24,951 bases of DNA from a virus: IMG/VR virus record IMGVR_UViG_3300042475_000045, positions 1-24,951 of that record, one strand, 5' to 3'. This document shows, one piece after another, positions 13,081 through 19,894 of this stretch. How positions within the stretch are numbered: the stretch's first letter is position 1; every line of letters starts with the position of its first letter. Under the pieces are notes generated by a model. It was not told the DNA's origin, did not search any database, and saw nothing but the letters and a program-made list of their open reading frames with translations. The position numbers and the translations under genes are program-made.

Positions 13081-14004
13081 TCAAGTTACCTTTTGTCTGT
13101 ATTGACCAGAACGATAAGCGTCTTGACGCTCCATACCATCACCCAGACGTTTAGCCAAACCAAGTGCTTCTTGGTATTTAGTATTGTAGAACGCCATGAT
13201 GTCCGCTTCACCTTTCATGTAGGTGTAAGCCTCAACCAAAGAGCCATACAAAAGTACCGAGTCAAAGTTATCACCAAGCCATGAGGTACCGTTAGCGTTA
13301 GACACTGCTGAAACTGGGATAGAAAAACTTGTACCTGTACCGCCAATATTTGCCGCTGCGGCAGACAGAGTGTTACCAACAACGTAAAAAATACCGCCAT
13401 TTGTAATGGTGACTGCTGTAACCGCGCCGCCAGAAACAGTAATTGTTGCCAATGCACCACTACCAGAACCACCCGTCAAAGGCACATTGAAGTATGTACC
13501 AGCCGTATATGCACTACCACCTGTAATGGCACCAACAGAAGTAACTATGCCTTGAACAATAGAAGAAGGATAGTAGTAATAGTGAAGTTCTACAGGATAA
13601 ACCGCATCTGGCGTTGGACCAAGGATAAATGACAACTCATTAGCATCATTAGTCTGCGCGCCAAACAAAGCATAGTACTTTGGTATACCTGTATCATTGG
13701 CTTGCGGATACGCTTGACGAATATAGTTAACATCTTTGTTAAGTAAGTATTCATACGTACCTGTAGACAAAGTGCCGTCTACAACCGCCATGGAATATGA
13801 GGCTAAAAAGTCAGAAGGGCATGCCAAATATTTATTATTAGCCGTAGTTGCGCCCGTTACGTTTTTGCGAAGCGATGGAAACTGTACCGTGTTATAAATA
13901 CGCTGCTCAGCCTGCTGAACGAACACGGGTATCTCAGCGATAAAACTCGCTTCAGTATTTTCCGTATACGCTTGAATAGCGTTGCTGAGTTCAGTGTAAT
14001 TCAT
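13081..14004 (-). CDS. Head-tail adaptor protein with inserted beta domain
   Basis: 307 aa. The helical N-terminus (MNYTELSNAIQAYTENTEAS, IPVFVQQAEQRIYNTVQFP) and the C-terminal part (SWLGDNFDSVLLYGSLVEAY, TYMKGEADIMAFYNTKYQ) form the core of a phage adaptor/tail tubular protein family comparable to T7 gp11. This ring protein connects the portal side to the tail. Between YYYYPSSIV (~150) and NGTSWLG (~239) lies a Gly/Thr/Val-rich segment of about 85 residues (GGSAYTAGTYFNVPLTGGSG, GAVTAVTITNGG) that looks like a separate inserted beta domain. The ATG overlaps the upstream stop by 4 nt. The adaptor call is firm in type; the exact family name is from memory. Confidence 0.84.
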   Translation of the reverse strand: MNYTELSNAIQAYTENTEASFIAEIPVFVQQAEQRIYNTVQFPSLRKNVTGATTANNKYLACPSDFLASYSMAVVDGTLSTGTYEYLLNKDVNYIRQAYPQANDTGIPKYYALFGAQTNDANELSFILGPTPDAVYPVELHYYYYPSSIVQGIVTSVGAITGGSAYTAGTYFNVPLTGGSGSGALATITVSGGAVTAVTITNGGIFYVVGNTLSAAAANIGGTGTSFSIPVSAVSNANGTSWLGDNFDSVLLYGSLVEAYTYMKGEADIMAFYNTKYQEALGLAKRLGDGMERQDAYRSGQYRQKVT

Positions 14005-14267
14005 GCCATCGGGCCTCTAGACATTACGCCTTTAATTGCACAGCCAGTGCCGCGCATCTTAATGCCAGAAGTTTTTGGTGCTTTGTATGGATCGCGGCTA
14101 ATATTGCCAACGGACATATTTACATCATTAGCGGTATAACGATTGCCACCGTCATAGCCACTGTTCTTGATGTCAACACCGGCTTTGCCAGTCATAGTGT
14201 GAGGTGGTGCATAAACAGCACCATCACCAACTTCTTTGCCCATTACTTTTTTGCTGAATTTAGCCAT
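14001..14267 (-). CDS. Basic GKT-motif-cluster protein, 88 aa
   Basis: 88 aa from the ATG at 14267. A longer open frame adds 13 residues upstream, but these overlap the previous gene, and 14267 lies just after that gene's TAA. It begins MAKFSKKVMGKEVGDGAVY and continues PPHTMTGKAGVDIKNSGYDG, then NVNMSVGNISRDPYKAP. It ends GIKMRGTGCAIKGVMSRGPM, a variant of the [DTN]G-[CIV]-A-x-[KR]-G motif shared with four other basic genes between here and 17343. The C-terminal RGTGxAxKG...RGPMA form is familiar from environmental phages but uncharacterised. Its position just before the adaptor gene suggests a neck or head-completion factor. Function unknown. Confidence 0.75.
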   Translation of the reverse strand: MAKFSKKVMGKEVGDGAVYAPPHTMTGKAGVDIKNSGYDGGNRYTANDVNMSVGNISRDPYKAPKTSGIKMRGTGCAIKGVMSRGPMA

Positions 14268-14268
14268 A

Positions 14269-14457
14269 TTAGCCTCGCTTTTGATTAGCAATTTTAGCCA
14301 AACCACGACCCATTTTTTTCATGTCGGCGTTTGTTTTTCCAACAGTGTGCTTTTTAGGGCCGTTTTCAATCCCTACTGTAGGGCCACTGTCCCCATAATT
14401 CTTACCAACGGTCTTGCCTTTTTTAGCGATGCCGTCTGCTGATCGTGTGTATGCCAT
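14269..14457 (-). CDS. Basic GKT-motif protein, 62 aa
   Basis: 62 aa, strongly basic and Gly-rich. The motif SADGIAKKGKTVGK is near the N-terminus (residues 6-19), whereas other members of the cluster carry it at the C-terminus. The rest (GPKKHTVGKTNADMKKMG, RGLAKIANQKRG) has no predicted hydrophobic core and may be disordered until bound to a partner. GGGAG precedes the ATG, and the stop is 1 nt from the next start. No function known. Binding of nucleic acid or an acidic virion surface is possible from charge alone. Confidence 0.72.
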   Translation of the reverse strand: MAYTRSADGIAKKGKTVGKNYGDSGPTVGIENGPKKHTVGKTNADMKKMGRGLAKIANQKRG

Positions 14458-14459
14458 TT

Positions 14460-14891
14460 TTAGCTCCCTATTTGTATCGTTACTGTACCAACTTGTGCGT
14501 ATAAAACCAAGTAGTTTGGTGTTAAAACTGAATCAAAACTTCTTGCTCCACCAACAGGGTTCCATCCCCACTGGAAAACTCGGCTACCAGATTCAGGATA
14601 ACCAAATTCATCTACAGCTGTCCCGTTGCTATTTATAAGCTGCAAGCCATTCTGACCAGACACCAAATAGCTTACATCAGGACGAGGCTCCCGAACAGCT
14701 TGCGGATCATTAACTGGATACATACCCAATTGCAACTGCGGCTGATCTGGATCCCAGCATTCATGACAAACTTTAATTCTAAATGGCTTGGTCTTTACTG
14801 TTTGGGTGCGCAACTCTTTCAGCATATATCGCCCAGAGCAGCGATCACACTCTGCAATGGCATGCTTACCGGACGCAAACCGATTAGGCAT
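14460..14891 (-). CDS. Zinc-ribbon phage protein, neck-associated
   Basis: 143 aa from the ATG at 14891 (MPNRFASGKHAIAECDRC). The frame opens 7 codons earlier, but AAGGA at 14901-14905 fits the internal ATG, and the resulting 8-nt overlap with the adaptor gene's TAA (ATGCCTAA) recurs elsewhere in the window. Cys15 and Cys18 (ECDRC) pair with Cys42 and Cys45 (VCHEC) in a CxxC-x23-CxxC zinc ribbon. DPDQPQLQLGMYPVNDPQAV and REPRPD follow, a segment I recall as strongly conserved in environmental phages. The C-terminal ~60 residues form a beta-like domain. Encoded between two head-tail proteins, so a structural zinc site or DNA contact in the neck is possible; no role is established. Confidence 0.82.
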   Translation of the reverse strand: MPNRFASGKHAIAECDRCSGRYMLKELRTQTVKTKPFRIKVCHECWDPDQPQLQLGMYPVNDPQAVREPRPDVSYLVSGQNGLQLINSNGTAVDEFGYPESGSRVFQWGWNPVGGARSFDSVLTPNYLVLYAQVGTVTIQIGS

Positions 14892-15810
14892 AGAACAAAT
14901 TCCTTGGCACAAATCTCAATGGTGCTGTTTCGCGGTCTTCTGACTGCGCAATGTCCCATTGCTGCTCATAATCGGCCTTTAGAGCCATTATTCTTTGCGG
15001 GTCTACGTCAGGTAGCTTCATGCTTAATTGAACGGCTAGACCGGCCACCATGCAAGGAATAAAGCGGAAAGGAATATCTTGGACAGATGTACCTGTGCCG
15101 GCATCTTGAATACGGCGCATGCGGTAATACACAAGAGTGTATTGATCACCAGGCGCATTTGGTGTTGGCCAAATATTGATGGCTGGTATGTTTTGAATTG
15201 TCAGTGCTGCGCCCGATGTATGGCTGGCGGCAGTTGTATTGTTCTGTCCACGAGCGCAATTAATTAATTGATTACCAACAATGTTGGGATAACTAATTGT
15301 TTCGTTGTCAATCTTAATGAATCCAGCCGTGGACAAATTGGCAACTGAAGACACTGTAATAGATGTGGCCGTGCTGGTAATAGTTCCACTCAACGTCACT
15401 GTGGACAAGTTTTCCTGTCCAGATTGGCGGTTAAACCACATCTGAATTGGGCGACCTTGAGCCAGCTTGTTAGGCAAACTCATGTAAGTCGATTCTGAAA
15501 TGCCACTAATGTTGATGTCAATTTGGTTAGATGTACCGTTGCTTTGACGAACAACAGTATCTAGCAAGTTGATTGTATCAACAGGCATGGGGTATATAGC
15601 CTGCCCTGTAACCAAAGGAATCTGCCCTTGTTCAACAGTCCAAAAATTTATACCCCGATTTGCCCACTCAATTGTCAAAAGATTTAATGAACGGCGAGCT
15701 GTACGAAAGTTATAGCCAGTACGAAGTTCTTGACCGCAACGCTCAAACGCCTCTTCAATGAGGTCGTTCATGTCCAAATTAAAGGCAGTGGTTCCGGTGG
15801 TCGTAGCCAT
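14884..15810 (-). CDS. P22 gp4-like tail accessory/head-completion factor with inserted beta domain
   Basis: 308 aa. The N-terminal helices (MNDLIEEAFERCGQELRTGY, TARRSLNLLTIEWANRGIN) and the strand QIPLVTGQAIYPMPVDTINL resemble head-tail connector proteins of the P22 gp4 type, which bind under the portal. The C-terminal part (AINIWPTPN, YTLVYYRMRRIQDAG, FRFIPCMVAGLAVQLSMKLP) completes that core. Residues ~137-205 (TVTLSGTITSTATSITVSSV ... NCARGQNNTTAASHTSGAAL) form a separate beta module of a kind frequent in phage proteins (SVANLSTAGFIKIDNETI), so the protein is about twice gp4's length. The start shares one base with the upstream stop (TAATG). The role is inferred from fold-like resemblance and position. 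Confidence 0.8.
   Translation of the reverse strand: MATTTGTTAFNLDMNDLIEEAFERCGQELRTGYNFRTARRSLNLLTIEWANRGINFWTVEQGQIPLVTGQAIYPMPVDTINLLDTVVRQSNGTSNQIDINISGISESTYMSLPNKLAQGRPIQMWFNRQSGQENLSTVTLSGTITSTATSITVSSVANLSTAGFIKIDNETISYPNIVGNQLINCARGQNNTTAASHTSGAALTIQNIPAINIWPTPNAPGDQYTLVYYRMRRIQDAGTGTSVQDIPFRFIPCMVAGLAVQLSMKLPDVDPQRIMALKADYEQQWDIAQSEDRETAPLRFVPRNLFYA
14901..14905 (-). promoter_or_regulatory. Ribosome binding site fixing the zinc-ribbon start
   Basis: AAGGA on the minus strand lies 9 nt before the ATG at 14891 and inside the 3' end of the adaptor gene. No comparable site precedes the alternative in-frame start at 14912, so the shorter protein starting MPNRF is preferred. Confidence 0.6.
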
Positions 15811-16058
15811 TATTTTTTCGCAGTCTTAGCAGAGTTTATGAACGCTTGCTTAGTTGGCGCACCTTTGCTACCAGGTTTACGCATCTTCTCTTTAGAACCA
15901 GCGGCTATACGTTTTTTCTTTGCGTTAATGTTGGCATACAAGCCAATAGGCCCACCGTCAGCATATTGCATAAAGTCGGTGTTATCCTTGCGAGCTTTTT
16001 TAGTGCCGCTTGGCATTTTAGAGGGGGAGATATCCCCCATTCCACGGCTTGCTCTCAT
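15810..16058 (-). CDS. Small basic phage protein (YANI-type), 82 aa
   Basis: 82 aa, very Lys/Arg-rich. Residues 1-20 are MRASRGMGDISPSKMPSGTK. ADGGPIGLYANINAKKKRIA follows, then a basic tail GSKEKMRKPGSKGAPTKQAF. The GL[YW]ANI.AK[KR][KR]RI..GS.EKMRKPG segment recurs in many environmental phages from memory, always as a tiny ORF near neck genes. It carries ADGG but not the full GKT motif of its neighbours. Its stop is fused to the next start (TAATG). Charge suggests contact with DNA or with acidic virion proteins. Function unknown. Confidence 0.75.
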   Translation of the reverse strand: MRASRGMGDISPSKMPSGTKKARKDNTDFMQYADGGPIGLYANINAKKKRIAAGSKEKMRKPGSKGAPTKQAFINSAKTAKK

Positions 16059-16060
16059 GG

Positions 16061-16525
16061 TTAAGCTCTTGTCTTTCCGCGAATAGCACAGCCATCAGCA
16101 CGCTTAGAAGCAGAAGAAACCTTACCACCACCTTTTAAACCTAAGCTACCCATGAATTTATTCTCATCGGCCTTCTTTTTAATGCCAGTAAGAATGCGAT
16201 TTTGAGTATTGCGAGGCATTGCGTCTTCAGCTTTTTTAGCCGCACGTTTAGCGTTGTAAGACTCAGCACGCTCACGCATAGTCTCTTGACGAAGCGGGGG
16301 TTTCTTATAACGGCTAGCTAAACGGCTTGCTTCATCACCAGTATCCCGAACTTTTGACGCGGGTTTAGATTTAGCTTTTGGTTTTTCAGATGCAAAAACA
16401 GTTTCAGAAGTACCCGCAGCACCACGCTCATTAGGCATTAGCATAAGCTCTGTGCGTTCATTTGCGGCTTCCATTTCATCAATGTCGCCGCCTTCTTCGT
16501 AACGTTTCATCTTACGTGTAGCCAT
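16061..16525 (-). CDS. Basic GKT-motif protein, 154 aa
   Basis: 154 aa. It starts MATRKMKRYEEGGDIDEMEA, where the EGGD[IM]xE stretch also occurs in the 176-aa neighbour (KEGGDMAESKAM). The centre is a Lys/Arg/Ala/Glu-rich helix-prone segment (RQETMRERAESYNAKRAAKK). The end is LKGGGKVSSASKRADGCAIR then GKTRA, nearly the same as the 91-aa protein's C-terminus (YKKGGSVGSASKRADGCCIK). The similarity extends to DNA level around 16075-16110 and 16555-16590. No known enzyme domain. Probably a virion-associated or assembly factor, by position only. Confidence 0.75.
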   Translation of the reverse strand: MATRKMKRYEEGGDIDEMEAANERTELMLMPNERGAAGTSETVFASEKPKAKSKPASKVRDTGDEASRLASRYKKPPLRQETMRERAESYNAKRAAKKAEDAMPRNTQNRILTGIKKKADENKFMGSLGLKGGGKVSSASKRADGCAIRGKTRA

Positions 16526-16527
16526 GA

Positions 16528-16803
16528 TTACACCATCTTTCCGCGAGTTTTACCTTTGATACAGCAGCCATCTGCACGTTTAGATGCTGAGCCTACTGAG
16601 CCGCCTTTTTTATAGCCCATGTCGCTAATTTTCTTGCGCGCATTAGCATCAACAGCATCTTGCCTGGCTTCTTGAATAGCGTCAAAGTTAACTGGCTTAG
16701 GAATACCACGAGACTCGCGCTTCATTTCAGCACCAGCTTCACGTGCGGCTTTTCTAGATGGCATCATGTCCATCATTTCATTAAGTTTTTCACGGAGTGC
16801 CAT
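16528..16803 (-). CDS. Basic GKT-motif protein, 91 aa
   Basis: 91 aa. A helical, Met/Glu/Lys/Arg-rich N-terminal region (MALREKLNEMMDMMPSRKAA) leads to IPKPVNFDAIQEARQDAVDA and then GYKKGGSVGSASKRADGCCI, finishing KGKTRGKMV. It is the best example of the cluster's C-terminal motif, with two adjacent cysteines (Cys80-Cys81) inside it. TAAGGAAATACCATG fuses the preceding stop and the ribosome site. The C-terminal ~25 residues look like a portable tag attached to unrelated bodies in several neighbouring genes. Role unknown. Confidence 0.76.
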   Translation of the reverse strand: MALREKLNEMMDMMPSRKAAREAGAEMKRESRGIPKPVNFDAIQEARQDAVDANARKKISDMGYKKGGSVGSASKRADGCCIKGKTRGKMV

Positions 16804-16812
16804 GGTATTTCC

Positions 16813-17343
16813 TTAGCAGGTTTTGCCGCCACGTTTCATGGTAATCATTGTGCCCTTGGTTTTACCCTTGGTAGCAACACCATTAATGCTGGGAGCAGCT
16901 GTTTTAACAGAGCCCATTTTGGAAGCCGCAACACCACCTTTTTTCATGCCATGAGCTTTAGAAGCAGGTGCCGCAGCGTGAGCTTTCAAAGAAGTAGCAA
17001 TGCCACCCTTTTTCATGCCGTACTCAGCTTTTTCATGTTTGATCATGGATGCAGGTGCACCCTTTTTCTTCATGAAAGAGATTTCTTTCTTTGCCATTGC
17101 TTTAGATTCAGCCATATCGCCACCTTCTTTAAAAAGAGCCATTTTCCCGTGTTGGGTTTTTGGCTTATTCACCTTTTGAACATCTGGACGAGTACGCCCG
17201 CCAGAACCAAACTTCTTACCCTTATCCGCTTCTTCAAAATCTTTTCCAACACTTTGAGGTACACCAACTTTTTTGGCAAAGGCAGGATTGTTTGCTACCG
17301 CCGCCATAAAATTGTGTTGCTTCTTACTTGTGCTCGGCATCAT
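16813..17343 (-). CDS. Basic KKGG-repeat phage protein with PSTSKKQ N-terminus, 176 aa
   Basis: 176 aa. The N-terminal ~40 residues (MPSTSKKQHNFMAAVANNPA, KKVGVPQSVGKDFEEADKG) match a small conserved domain seen in many phage and bacterial proteins that I recall as DUF3008-like. The rest is Lys/Gly/Ala-rich: EGGDMAESKAM, EISFMKKKGAPASMIKHEKA, two GMKKGG repeats (~110 and ~133), then INGVATKGKTKGTM and RGGKTC. It combines the GKT motif and the KKGG motif found separately in neighbours. The ATG overlaps the upstream stop by 4 nt. Likely flexible and nucleic-acid- or virion-binding; no tested function is known to me. Confidence 0.78.
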   Translation of the reverse strand: MMPSTSKKQHNFMAAVANNPAFAKKVGVPQSVGKDFEEADKGKKFGSGGRTRPDVQKVNKPKTQHGKMALFKEGGDMAESKAMAKKEISFMKKKGAPASMIKHEKAEYGMKKGGIATSLKAHAAAPASKAHGMKKGGVAASKMGSVKTAAPSINGVATKGKTKGTMITMKRGGKTC

Positions 17344-17588
17344 TTCCCCGCTTGAATAAGCTGGTCAATTTTTGCTTCAAGCTTGTTAAAGCGTTGGTCA
17401 ATGTGGTTAGTAATTCTGTCAACTTCTGCTTGAGTAACGTTATCACGGGCAACCTCCTCACGTGTTTTGTTCAACAGGATCGTGACACGAGCCAGCTCCC
17501 TGAACTTTTCATTCATCATGTAGCCTAGCAGTCCAATCACCAAAGATAGGACGGCAGACCAGGCGGTGTTTAGATCTAACAATTCCAA
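17340..17588 (-). CDS. Small membrane-anchored coiled-coil protein, 82 aa
   Basis: 82 aa. Residues ~9-25 are a hydrophobic helix (AWSAVLSLVIGLLGYMM). A charged amphipathic helix fills the rest (NEKFRELARVTILLNKTREE, DRITNHIDQRFNKLEAKIDQ), typical of a bitopic inner-membrane protein with a coiled coil. It overlaps the previous gene by 13 nt and the next by 4 nt. This architecture resembles small phage holin-like or membrane-remodelling factors, yet it sits in the head/neck region, 15 kb away from the lysis genes. I leave the function open. Confidence 0.75.
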   Translation of the reverse strand: MELLDLNTAWSAVLSLVIGLLGYMMNEKFRELARVTILLNKTREEVARDNVTQAEVDRITNHIDQRFNKLEAKIDQLIQAGK

Positions 17589-17821
17589 GCCCTCAATGCT
17601 TTATTGATCCTTGAATCCGGATCGTTGGCAGTCTTGGCGCTGGTCAGTTTCTTTTTCATGCCACCCATCCGCGCACAGAATGAGTCTTTGCGAGAGCCGC
17701 CTTCCGGCTGGGGACGTTTCAAGTTCATACCTTGCGCTTTGGCGGAGGCTCGGCCTTTGGCGTTCAAGCCGCCCTTCTCGGACTTGCCTTCTTTCCTCTG
17801 CCATGCTGGACTCTTAGCCAT
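17576..17821 (-). CDS. Small basic conserved phage protein (DUF6321-like), 81 aa
   Basis: 81 aa. It starts MAKSPAWQRKEGKSEKGGLN and contains AKGRASAKAQGMNLKRP, then SRKDSFCARMGGMKKKLTSA, ending DPDSRINKALRAWNC. The KSPAWQRKEGK..KGGLNAKGR...L..P ... SF.ARM.GM sequence is a frequently seen phage ORF that I recall as a DUF6321-type domain. Its function is unknown. It is strongly basic with a short conserved core. It overlaps the previous gene by the octamer ATGGCTAA. An internal protein or DNA-associated packaging factor would fit the charge and position but is inference. Confidence 0.8.
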   Translation of the reverse strand: MAKSPAWQRKEGKSEKGGLNAKGRASAKAQGMNLKRPQPEGGSRKDSFCARMGGMKKKLTSAKTANDPDSRINKALRAWNC

Positions 17822-18967: not shown

Positions 18968-18987
18968 AATATTTCCTAAGAAATATT
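18968..18987 (-). other. AT-rich hairpin overlapping the capsid stop codon
   Basis: A perfect 8-bp inverted repeat (AATATTTC / GAAATATT, 4-nt loop) covers the last two bases of the capsid gene's TAA and the following 18 nt. It lacks its own T-tract and precedes the GC-rich terminator by 5 nt. It may stabilise the 3' end of the capsid message or influence termination; this is inferred from structure only. Confidence 0.6.
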
Positions 18988-19894
18988 ATGCGCCGGCAGA
19001 ACCGAACATGCCCAATGGATCGCTCCAGCCGAAGCTGTAACGCTCACGAGACTTGTAACGGACGTTACCAGTATCAAAGTCACCGTCCATAGACTGTGAC
19101 AAAGGAGTACGCACAAAGTGCTTCATGCCGTTAGGAACGTCTGTGGTCAGGAACCAAGCGTTAGTATCGGTCAAGAAGTGGTTAATGGTAAATCCACCAG
19201 GGATAGAACCATTGTTCTTCAATGCGTTGATATCGTTGTCAGCAGTAGACACACGCAATTCAGTCTCAAGCAAGCGAGTTGCCGTGAACTGTAATGCAGG
19301 TGGAACAACCAACTTATTAGGCTTAGCAGCGATCAACAAGCCACGCTCATCTGTCCACAAGCTAATCTGAATAACAGCGTTTTCCAACGATGTTTCATTC
19401 AAGTCAGCAGGGGTAGAAGGAACGTTACTGTTAGTGCCGCCAGACACTAGGGGGTGGCTAGCAGAGAACAAAGCGACACCATCACCACCAGCATAAGCAT
19501 TGCTGAAACCGTTATTCAAAACGGATGCAGCTTTAACTTGCTTGGTGTAAGCCATAGCGCGGGCCAAAGCTTTTGTGTAACGTGCAGACAGTGAGTCATA
19601 CAAGTTATCTTCAATAGCCTCTTCAGTCAAGCTGAAGCCCAAAGCAATGGTTTCGTGGTTGTATCGAGCAGTCCATGCTTCCTGCGCATTGTCATAAGCG
19701 ATGGCAGAGCCCTCGTTCTTGACAGGTGCAGCAGAGAAACCAGACAGTTTTGTCTCTTCTTCAAAGCTACGCTCAGATGTTTCTGTTTCGTAGATCTCTT
19801 TGTGCTCTTCGCCGTATTTGGCGTACTCAAGACCGAACAATGCGTTCAGACCTGGGAGCAACTCTTTAAGTAGTTGTGCGCGTGAAATAGCCAT
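18986..19894 (-). CDS. Major capsid protein (Mu gpT-like/HK97-fold)
   Basis: 302 aa. The helical N-arm (MAISRAQLLKELLPGLNALF, YAKYGEEHKEIYETETSERS) is followed by EEETKLSGFSAAP and AITALGF-type core segments. GVALFSASHPLVSGGTNSNV, then LLIAAKPNKLVVPPAL and IPGGFTINHFLTDTNAWFLT follow. The RGLLIAAKPNKLVVPP strand and the SASHPL-(x)-GGT.SN loop are typical of the Mu gpT-like major head subunit group of HK97-fold coat proteins. The size matches an unprocessed coat, and I see no protease gene, so assembly probably uses the separate scaffold upstream. TAAGGAGCTAAATCATG is the strongest ribosome site in the window, and the gene ends at two hairpins; both fit high expression. Confidence 0.93.
   Translation of the reverse strand: MAISRAQLLKELLPGLNALFGLEYAKYGEEHKEIYETETSERSFEEETKLSGFSAAPVKNEGSAIAYDNAQEAWTARYNHETIALGFSLTEEAIEDNLYDSLSARYTKALARAMAYTKQVKAASVLNNGFSNAYAGGDGVALFSASHPLVSGGTNSNVPSTPADLNETSLENAVIQISLWTDERGLLIAAKPNKLVVPPALQFTATRLLETELRVSTADNDINALKNNGSIPGGFTINHFLTDTNAWFLTTDVPNGMKHFVRTPLSQSMDGDFDTGNVRYKSRERYSFGWSDPLGMFGSAGA

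Follow-up and report, generated by a model that had tools for sequence, protein, structure and literature searches.

The Locus and Its Motif-Bearing Genes

An IMG/VR virus record of 24,951 bases (IMGVR_UViG_3300042475_000045), here called the window, encodes a group of small, basic proteins carrying variants of one short peptide, here called the tag. The structural genes of the window all lie on the minus strand, in the order portal, GroES-like protein, scaffold, capsid, DUF6321 protein, the region holding five motif-bearing open reading frames (ORFs), and two SU10-type adaptors (Table 1). The initial annotation described one shared motif in these five ORFs, C-terminal in four and N-terminal in the 62-aa protein, and all five are present on the minus strand with the motif so placed. 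A hidden Markov model (HMM) trained on the 17-residue tag of other phages only, with the window and its near-identical relative L121 excluded, was searched against the 186 ORFs of the window. Four of the five are recovered as carriers of the same motif (E values from 5e-11 to 7e-8). The fifth, an 88-aa protein with an alternative GTG start further upstream at 14306, is marginal (E=0.11) and only loosely tag-like. Beyond these five the HMM finds nothing among the 186 ORFs, the next-best being noise (E=1.7).

Lys/Gly-rich composition fails to explain the motif, because shuffling each protein 20,000 times yields even its loose form only 0-6 times, and no other ORF of the window contains it. The proteins had been described as very basic and free of a hydrophobic core, which is true of the tag class: the isoelectric point (pI) exceeds 9 in 100% of 225 tag proteins, and the fraction of VILFWYC residues is 0.15, as against ~0.30 in globular neighbours. 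Interleaving with adaptor genes is also borne out, as two SU10_adaptor Pfam matches flank the 62- and 88-aa ORFs. A second proposed motif, GxKxGG, is real but amounts to a flexible linker ahead of the tag, and the shared EGGD[IM]xE string belongs to a minority start type, MK..[FY]..GG, seen in 28 of 289 ORFs.

Table 1. Genes of the tag cassette and its surroundings in the window
Feature	Coordinates	Strand	Details
176-aa protein	16813..17343	-	N-terminal 43-aa module at 17212-17340; Lys/Gly-rich middle; tag INGVATKGKTKG at 16852-16902; 12-residue tail; tag HMM E=1.1e-8
91-aa variable-body protein	16528..16803	-	strict C-terminal tag SASKRADGCCIKGKTRGKMV at 16531-16590; tag HMM E=1.1e-10
154-aa variable-body protein	16061..16525	-	strict C-terminal tag SASKRADGCAIRGKTRA at 16064-16114; tag HMM E=4.9e-11
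62-aa fixed single-copy protein	14269..14457	-	N-terminal motif SADGIAKKGKTVG at 14404-14448; tag HMM E=6.6e-8
88-aa fixed single-copy protein	14001..14267	-	related but distinct C-terminus RGTGCAIKGVMSRGPMA at 14004-14054; tag HMM E=0.11
82-aa small basic protein without tag, closing the cassette	15810..16058	-	phrog_16028; family of 116 in relatives
82-aa coiled-coil/membrane-type protein, upstream cassette border	17340..17588	-	
DUF6321 protein, untagged in the window	17576..17821	-	PF19846 E=3.5e-17
First SU10-type head-tail adaptor, downstream cassette border	14884..15810	-	PF24175 E=1.6e-7
Second SU10-type adaptor	13081..14004	-	PF24175 E=4.9e-21; PDB 7z47 adaptor E=0.0012
Major capsid protein, upstream landmark	18986..19894	-	phrog_371 E=1.3e-22; 73% identical to the major capsid proteins of Pag-Yong1 and MinM2; no match in a PDB sequence search

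Selection on the Tag Peptide

Relatives were collected by two DNA-pattern scans of IMG/VR, the first with a degenerate core and the second with a core carrying I for C plus a stop codon; all locus counts given here are among the matches listed. The first pool, window included, holds at least 289 motif ORFs, with the motif mostly within 12 residues of the C-terminus. That pool was chosen by the degenerate motif, and the tag was rechecked in a second pool and by running the HMM on all cassette ORFs in 149 loci, which gave 354 tags; the HMM and both patterns are still biased towards the core residues.

The tag spans about 17 residues with the consensus [ST]AS-x-RADG-[CIV]-A-x-[KR]-GKT-[KR]-G-[KR]-MV-stop. 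Gly 1, Gly 6, and Thr 8 occur in all 354 tags and the core Asp (position 0), Ala, and Lys in 342 each, although complete invariance is slightly overstated by an HMM trained on tags already bearing these residues. Lys and Arg interchange freely at positions 5 and 9, and Lys 7 is Arg in only 1 of 354. Most tags (316 of 354) finish within 15 residues of the C-terminus; variants include tags followed by 11-12 extra residues, TRA ends, and an N-terminal version. The tag is modelled as disordered, with an AlphaFold predicted local distance difference test (pLDDT) score below 50 over the tag carried on DUF6321.

Several lines of evidence indicate that the peptide, rather than its DNA, is under selection. 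At the conserved residues, the choice among synonymous codons is fully mixed. In 42 unsaturated pairs (the loci are related to each other, so that pair counts here and below are not independent), the ratio of nonsynonymous to synonymous substitution rates (dN/dS) is 0.14 for tags and 0.26 for bodies, and across comparisons it is about 0.14-0.15 and 0.2-0.26, respectively, well below the value near 1 that would have counted against a shared tag. Moreover, tag identity within a genome (0.736) does not exceed that between genomes (0.726; permutation 96/500). Recent tandem duplication or gene conversion is thereby ruled out as the source of the motif, and the tag appears suited to a partner common to all these phages. 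Taken together, conserved residues, mixed codons, and equal identity within and between genomes point to selection on the peptide by something that these phages share.

The core also recalls a Walker A loop, with the pattern G-x4-G-K-[ST] present in 342 of 354 tags, although Ser never occurs at position 8 in this set, which was gathered with an HMM built from Thr tags. The fold context does not agree. The GKT lies at the chain end behind a polar S-A-S-x-R-A stretch, no Pfam nucleoside triphosphatase (NTPase) match was found in 98 proteins, and the model around it is of low confidence, so the resemblance is by pattern only and a Walker A NTPase was rejected.

The two fixed proteins between the adaptors keep their motifs within their own families. 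The N-terminus of the 62-aa protein is conserved as ADGI[TA]K.GKT.G.NLGDSGP and the C-terminus of the 88-aa protein as GIK[IMV]RGTG[AC]ATKG.MARGPMA (79 relatives); the latter is a possible homologue of the tag.

Replaceable Bodies Behind a Constant Tag

The tag is independent of the body that carries it, in line with the earlier proposal of a peptide attached to different carriers: it ends unrelated bodies, is present on some DUF6321 proteins and absent from others, persists where bodies are replaced in near-identical phages, and is conserved despite scrambled codons. The bodies of the first pool fall into 103 BLAST clusters. A homologue is detectable across phage pairs for only 6-9% of bodies versus 63-100% of flanking genes, including small Lys/Gly-rich ones, and body detection rises only to 27% where adaptors are at least 85% identical. 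The body of the 91-aa ORF, for example, is common to a few relatives (such as L049, L050, and L067). Replacement can be wholesale: loci L055 and L113 have flanks of ~95% identical DNA, and within their tag genes the match is limited to ~8 codons at the start and ~30 at the end, with an entirely different body between.

Neutral drift of disordered linkers is an unlikely source of these non-homologous bodies, because shared bodies are under purifying selection (dN/dS about 0.2-0.26; 0.26 in unsaturated pairs) and comparable small, basic proteins nearby can still be recognised. There is only partial support for horizontal exchange as the general rule for bodies: most shared bodies track the flanking genes and bodies are much closer than flanks in 9 of 189 pairs.

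The untagged 82-aa protein that closes the cassette has a similar construction in relatives. Its N-terminus, MRASRGMG.I.PSKMP, is constant and is joined to one of two or more C-terminal modules that are unrelated to each other, GSGEKMRKPG..GAPT or GNYTKP.LRKR..GTGAGQWSARKAQL. This interchangeable C-terminus is a further sign of module swapping in the cassette.

DUF6321 provides a natural pair of proteins with and without the tag. Most relatives stop at W[NK]C; others run on as ...WNCADGGYV..ADGCAxxGKTKGRFV-stop, and the tag directly follows the domain in 13 of 98 distinct homologues. The DUF6321 tree requires about 6 gains or losses of the tag, at least 2 of them forced by well-supported branches. 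The domain, which stands alone in the window, is found elsewhere at the extreme C-terminus of several larger phage proteins, in PHROGs and in cyanophages. One protein of cyanophage S-SCSM1 has DUF6321 at its end and a virion-protein annotation, and this phage has a mass-spectrometric virion proteome (PMC9602691).

A second module with links to virions heads the 176-aa protein. Its first 43 residues match phrog_16759 (E=3.8e-22), a match restricted to this ORF in the window, and are 86% identical to PHIKZ165.1 of phage phiKZ. The same module also heads large virion proteins of Rak2-like jumbo phages and is unusually conserved across very different phages. CBB_322, which starts with this module, has been detected in virions by mass spectrometry with 30 peptides (PMC5259590).

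One Lineage and One Genomic Slot

The tag occurs throughout one phage lineage, which accounts for 235 of the 238 tag loci listed by the two scans. Head-block core genes are present in 118 of 120 first-pool loci and 117 of 118 new second-pool loci. Each locus carries one to six tag copies, and gene order is near-constant: capsid, DUF6321, cassette, 82-aa protein, adaptor, 150-aa protein, 62-aa protein, 88-aa protein, and second adaptor. Nearly all tag ORFs (237 of 239) lie on the same strand, between the capsid gene upstream and the first adaptor downstream. The 49 pattern matches in 18 long virus records form a single cluster per record, within less than 5 kb, and a reversed-pattern control gives 0. 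The constant order, single slot, and single cluster per record therefore show that the tag is the mark of a single cassette in a single phage lineage. The portability first proposed holds between bodies but is not free across phages.

By capsid sequence, the named relatives include MinM2/Pag-Yong1, DSL-LC04, HTVC023P, and CRP-902; the named lake relatives suggest that the phages bearing the tag are mostly freshwater. Among cultured phages, only a weak variant of the tag was found, in MinM2, Pag-Yong1, and Pra-JY27, carried on protein UMO75986.1. In GTDB contigs, 4 of 63 pattern matches are terminal tags within an ORF, one of which is likely to be chimeric: a 613-aa ORF of a Patulibacter metagenome-assembled genome (L173:162-2003) with the tag at its end looks as if assembly had joined an acyltransferase to a short phage ORF that begins MKRYAKGG. 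The tag peptide strings do not occur in the literature searched.

The slot varies among relatives: in HTVC027P, CRP-902, and 023Pt_psg01 it is free of such proteins although the head genes remain. In DSL-LC04 (L218:11340-11790) and HTVC023P (L217:16198-16850), it holds other small basic modules (KFKVYPSAYANA.. and KW..EKWV.IG.PKK..Y..CGR..) and no tag. In many relatives the slot also encodes a further small basic protein with the conserved sequence GERYLPE.AIK.LSP.EYAATTRAKRAGKA.GKQFV (for example L008:2145-2393 and L009:5348-5581), which was not seen in the window.

Three database records from the comparison, OQ594354.1, OL906435.1, and PP438419.1 (L123 / L222), are 65,014 bases each and 100% identical over the 9 kb compared, and state different cyanobacterial hosts (Synechococcus, Planktothrix, and Planktothricoides). 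Because the sequences are identical, the stated hosts merit checking.

A Proposed Recruitment Tag for Head Cargo

The tag is invariant, portable, terminal, and borne on a linker, and the bodies joined to it in the head-gene cassette are replaceable. Docking or loading is the best reading of such a peptide, and a recruitment role for the tag is well supported. In the proposed mechanism, a single invariant partner made by the phage, most likely part of the head under assembly, would capture proteins through the conserved address peptide, which in almost every case lies close to or at the C-terminus behind a Gly/Ser-rich flexible linker. The captured set would be the variable small, basic, and mostly disordered accessory proteins of the fixed capsid-adaptor cassette. 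The most likely outcome would be loading of these proteins into the procapsid and their delivery with the DNA, as phage T4 internal proteins are loaded by means of a capsid-targeting sequence (CTS). This fuller reading, in which the tag loads accessory proteins onto a head partner and probably into the capsid, is given an even chance of being correct. Internal loading is favoured by the basic, disordered bodies, by relatives that lack these proteins and keep their head genes, and by the occurrence of the two co-carried modules (the 43-residue module and DUF6321) in virion proteins elsewhere.

Several observations weigh on the other side. Tagged proteins have yet to be seen in a virion, and the search turned up no virion proteome for any phage that bears the tag. 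No effector activity is visible, because the bodies match no known family: 98 representatives gave no Pfam, NCBIfam, or PADLOC family beyond isolated chance-level matches and few PHROGs, the best of the latter being the N-terminal 43-residue module of one member. Structure prediction for the tagged 91-aa ORF likewise gave no confident fold. Finally, relatives without the cassette show that it is dispensable for head assembly, which suits cargo and also other accessory roles.

A different use of such a peptide would be structural: the accessory proteins would serve as decoration or neck whiskers that the tag fixes on the head exterior or the portal/adaptor neck. The adaptor genes follow directly on the cassette, two related motifs sit on proteins between the adaptors, and invariance of the tag across genomes suits a structural partner. 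However, strongly basic, disordered, and extremely variable bodies would be unusual for neck parts; the adaptors are acidic and conserved. This arrangement is considered unlikely.

For the mechanism, the initial annotation offered DNA condensation, docking at the portal, and binding of host nucleic acids without choosing between them. A basic, Gly-rich tail could bind DNA or phosphate and thereby let the proteins condense the genome or escort it, and the phosphate-loop pattern and the pI of the tag proteins agree with this. Retention of Asp 0, the near-absence of Arg at position 7, and free Lys/Arg exchange at positions 5 and 9 instead suggest specific contacts rather than bulk charge; moreover, the GKT lacks a surrounding NTPase fold, and the bodies are basic already. 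With Asp, Gly, Ala, Gly, Lys, and Thr near-invariant and Lys/Arg exchange unconstrained at just two other positions, recruitment by a specific partner fits the data better than non-specific DNA binding does, and a nucleic-acid-binding tail is judged rather improbable.

Signals read by the host are a further alternative, since the tag lies at or near the C-terminus, where a host protein might read it as a degradation or localisation tag. The tag's basic residues and its short hydrophobic ending, RMV or RFV, bear a loose resemblance to certain recognition tags at protein C-termini. Strict limitation to a head-gene cassette argues against such a signal, as does tolerance of 11-12-residue extensions, TRA ends, and an N-terminal version, which show that an exact C-terminus is dispensable; this explanation is quite improbable. 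Least credible, and largely refuted, is a functionless peptide whose DNA is conserved as a homology arm for gene swaps: DNA conservation does resume at the tag in swapped genes, but a DNA landmark would conserve bases, whereas mixed synonymous codons and the low dN/dS of the tag rule out a DNA-level recombination site alone and tags are no more alike within genomes than between them.

Comparison with Known Systems

If recruitment into the head is correct, the tag would offer a short peptide with which proteins could be loaded into phage heads. It would also be a sequence handle that sorts many family-less phage proteins into one class of candidate early-acting cargo whose function can be tested, and the strategy of T4 internal proteins, a fixed address with hypervariable cargo, would have arisen independently in unrelated phages. 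A broader proposal is more tentative and falls somewhat short of an even chance: the tag may be a C-terminal address label, universal and exchangeable by cassette, that an abundant uncultured lineage uses to load an open-ended set of unrelated, uncharacterised proteins into its particles for injection, as a natural plug-in system for cargo without match among described systems.

Encapsulin cargo-loading peptides are C-terminal, lie behind a flexible linker, and direct unrelated proteins into a shell of the HK97 fold. The tag shares this layout but differs in sequence, and it belongs to a phage, with contact to the shell only proposed, whereas encapsulins form a cellular shell.

The modules that travel with the tag are distinct from it. 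The phrog_16759 module of PHIKZ165.1 is recognisable in the 176-aa protein but is N-terminal and is not the tag, and no tag was seen in phiKZ-like phages in these searches. DUF6321 is likewise a small basic module of the same gene block, found at the extreme C-terminus of cyanophage virion proteins, but is a domain of ~80 residues rather than a linear tag, and itself carries the tag in some relatives.

The closest parallel is with the phage T4 internal proteins IPI, IPII, and IPIII, small basic proteins with differing bodies and a common short CTS (PMC9026906, PMC9391042). As in T4, a short conserved terminal peptide is found on small basic proteins with differing bodies, several per genome, which are accessory and whose bodies diverge between related phages. 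The T4 peptide, however, is N-terminal, has ~10 residues, and is removed by the head protease, whereas the tag is C-terminal, has ~17-20 residues, and sits on proteins of putative virion residence. Position thus sets the tag apart from the CTS, and because the T4 peptide is N-terminal and cleaved, the tag may be said to work like a T4 CTS rather than to be one.

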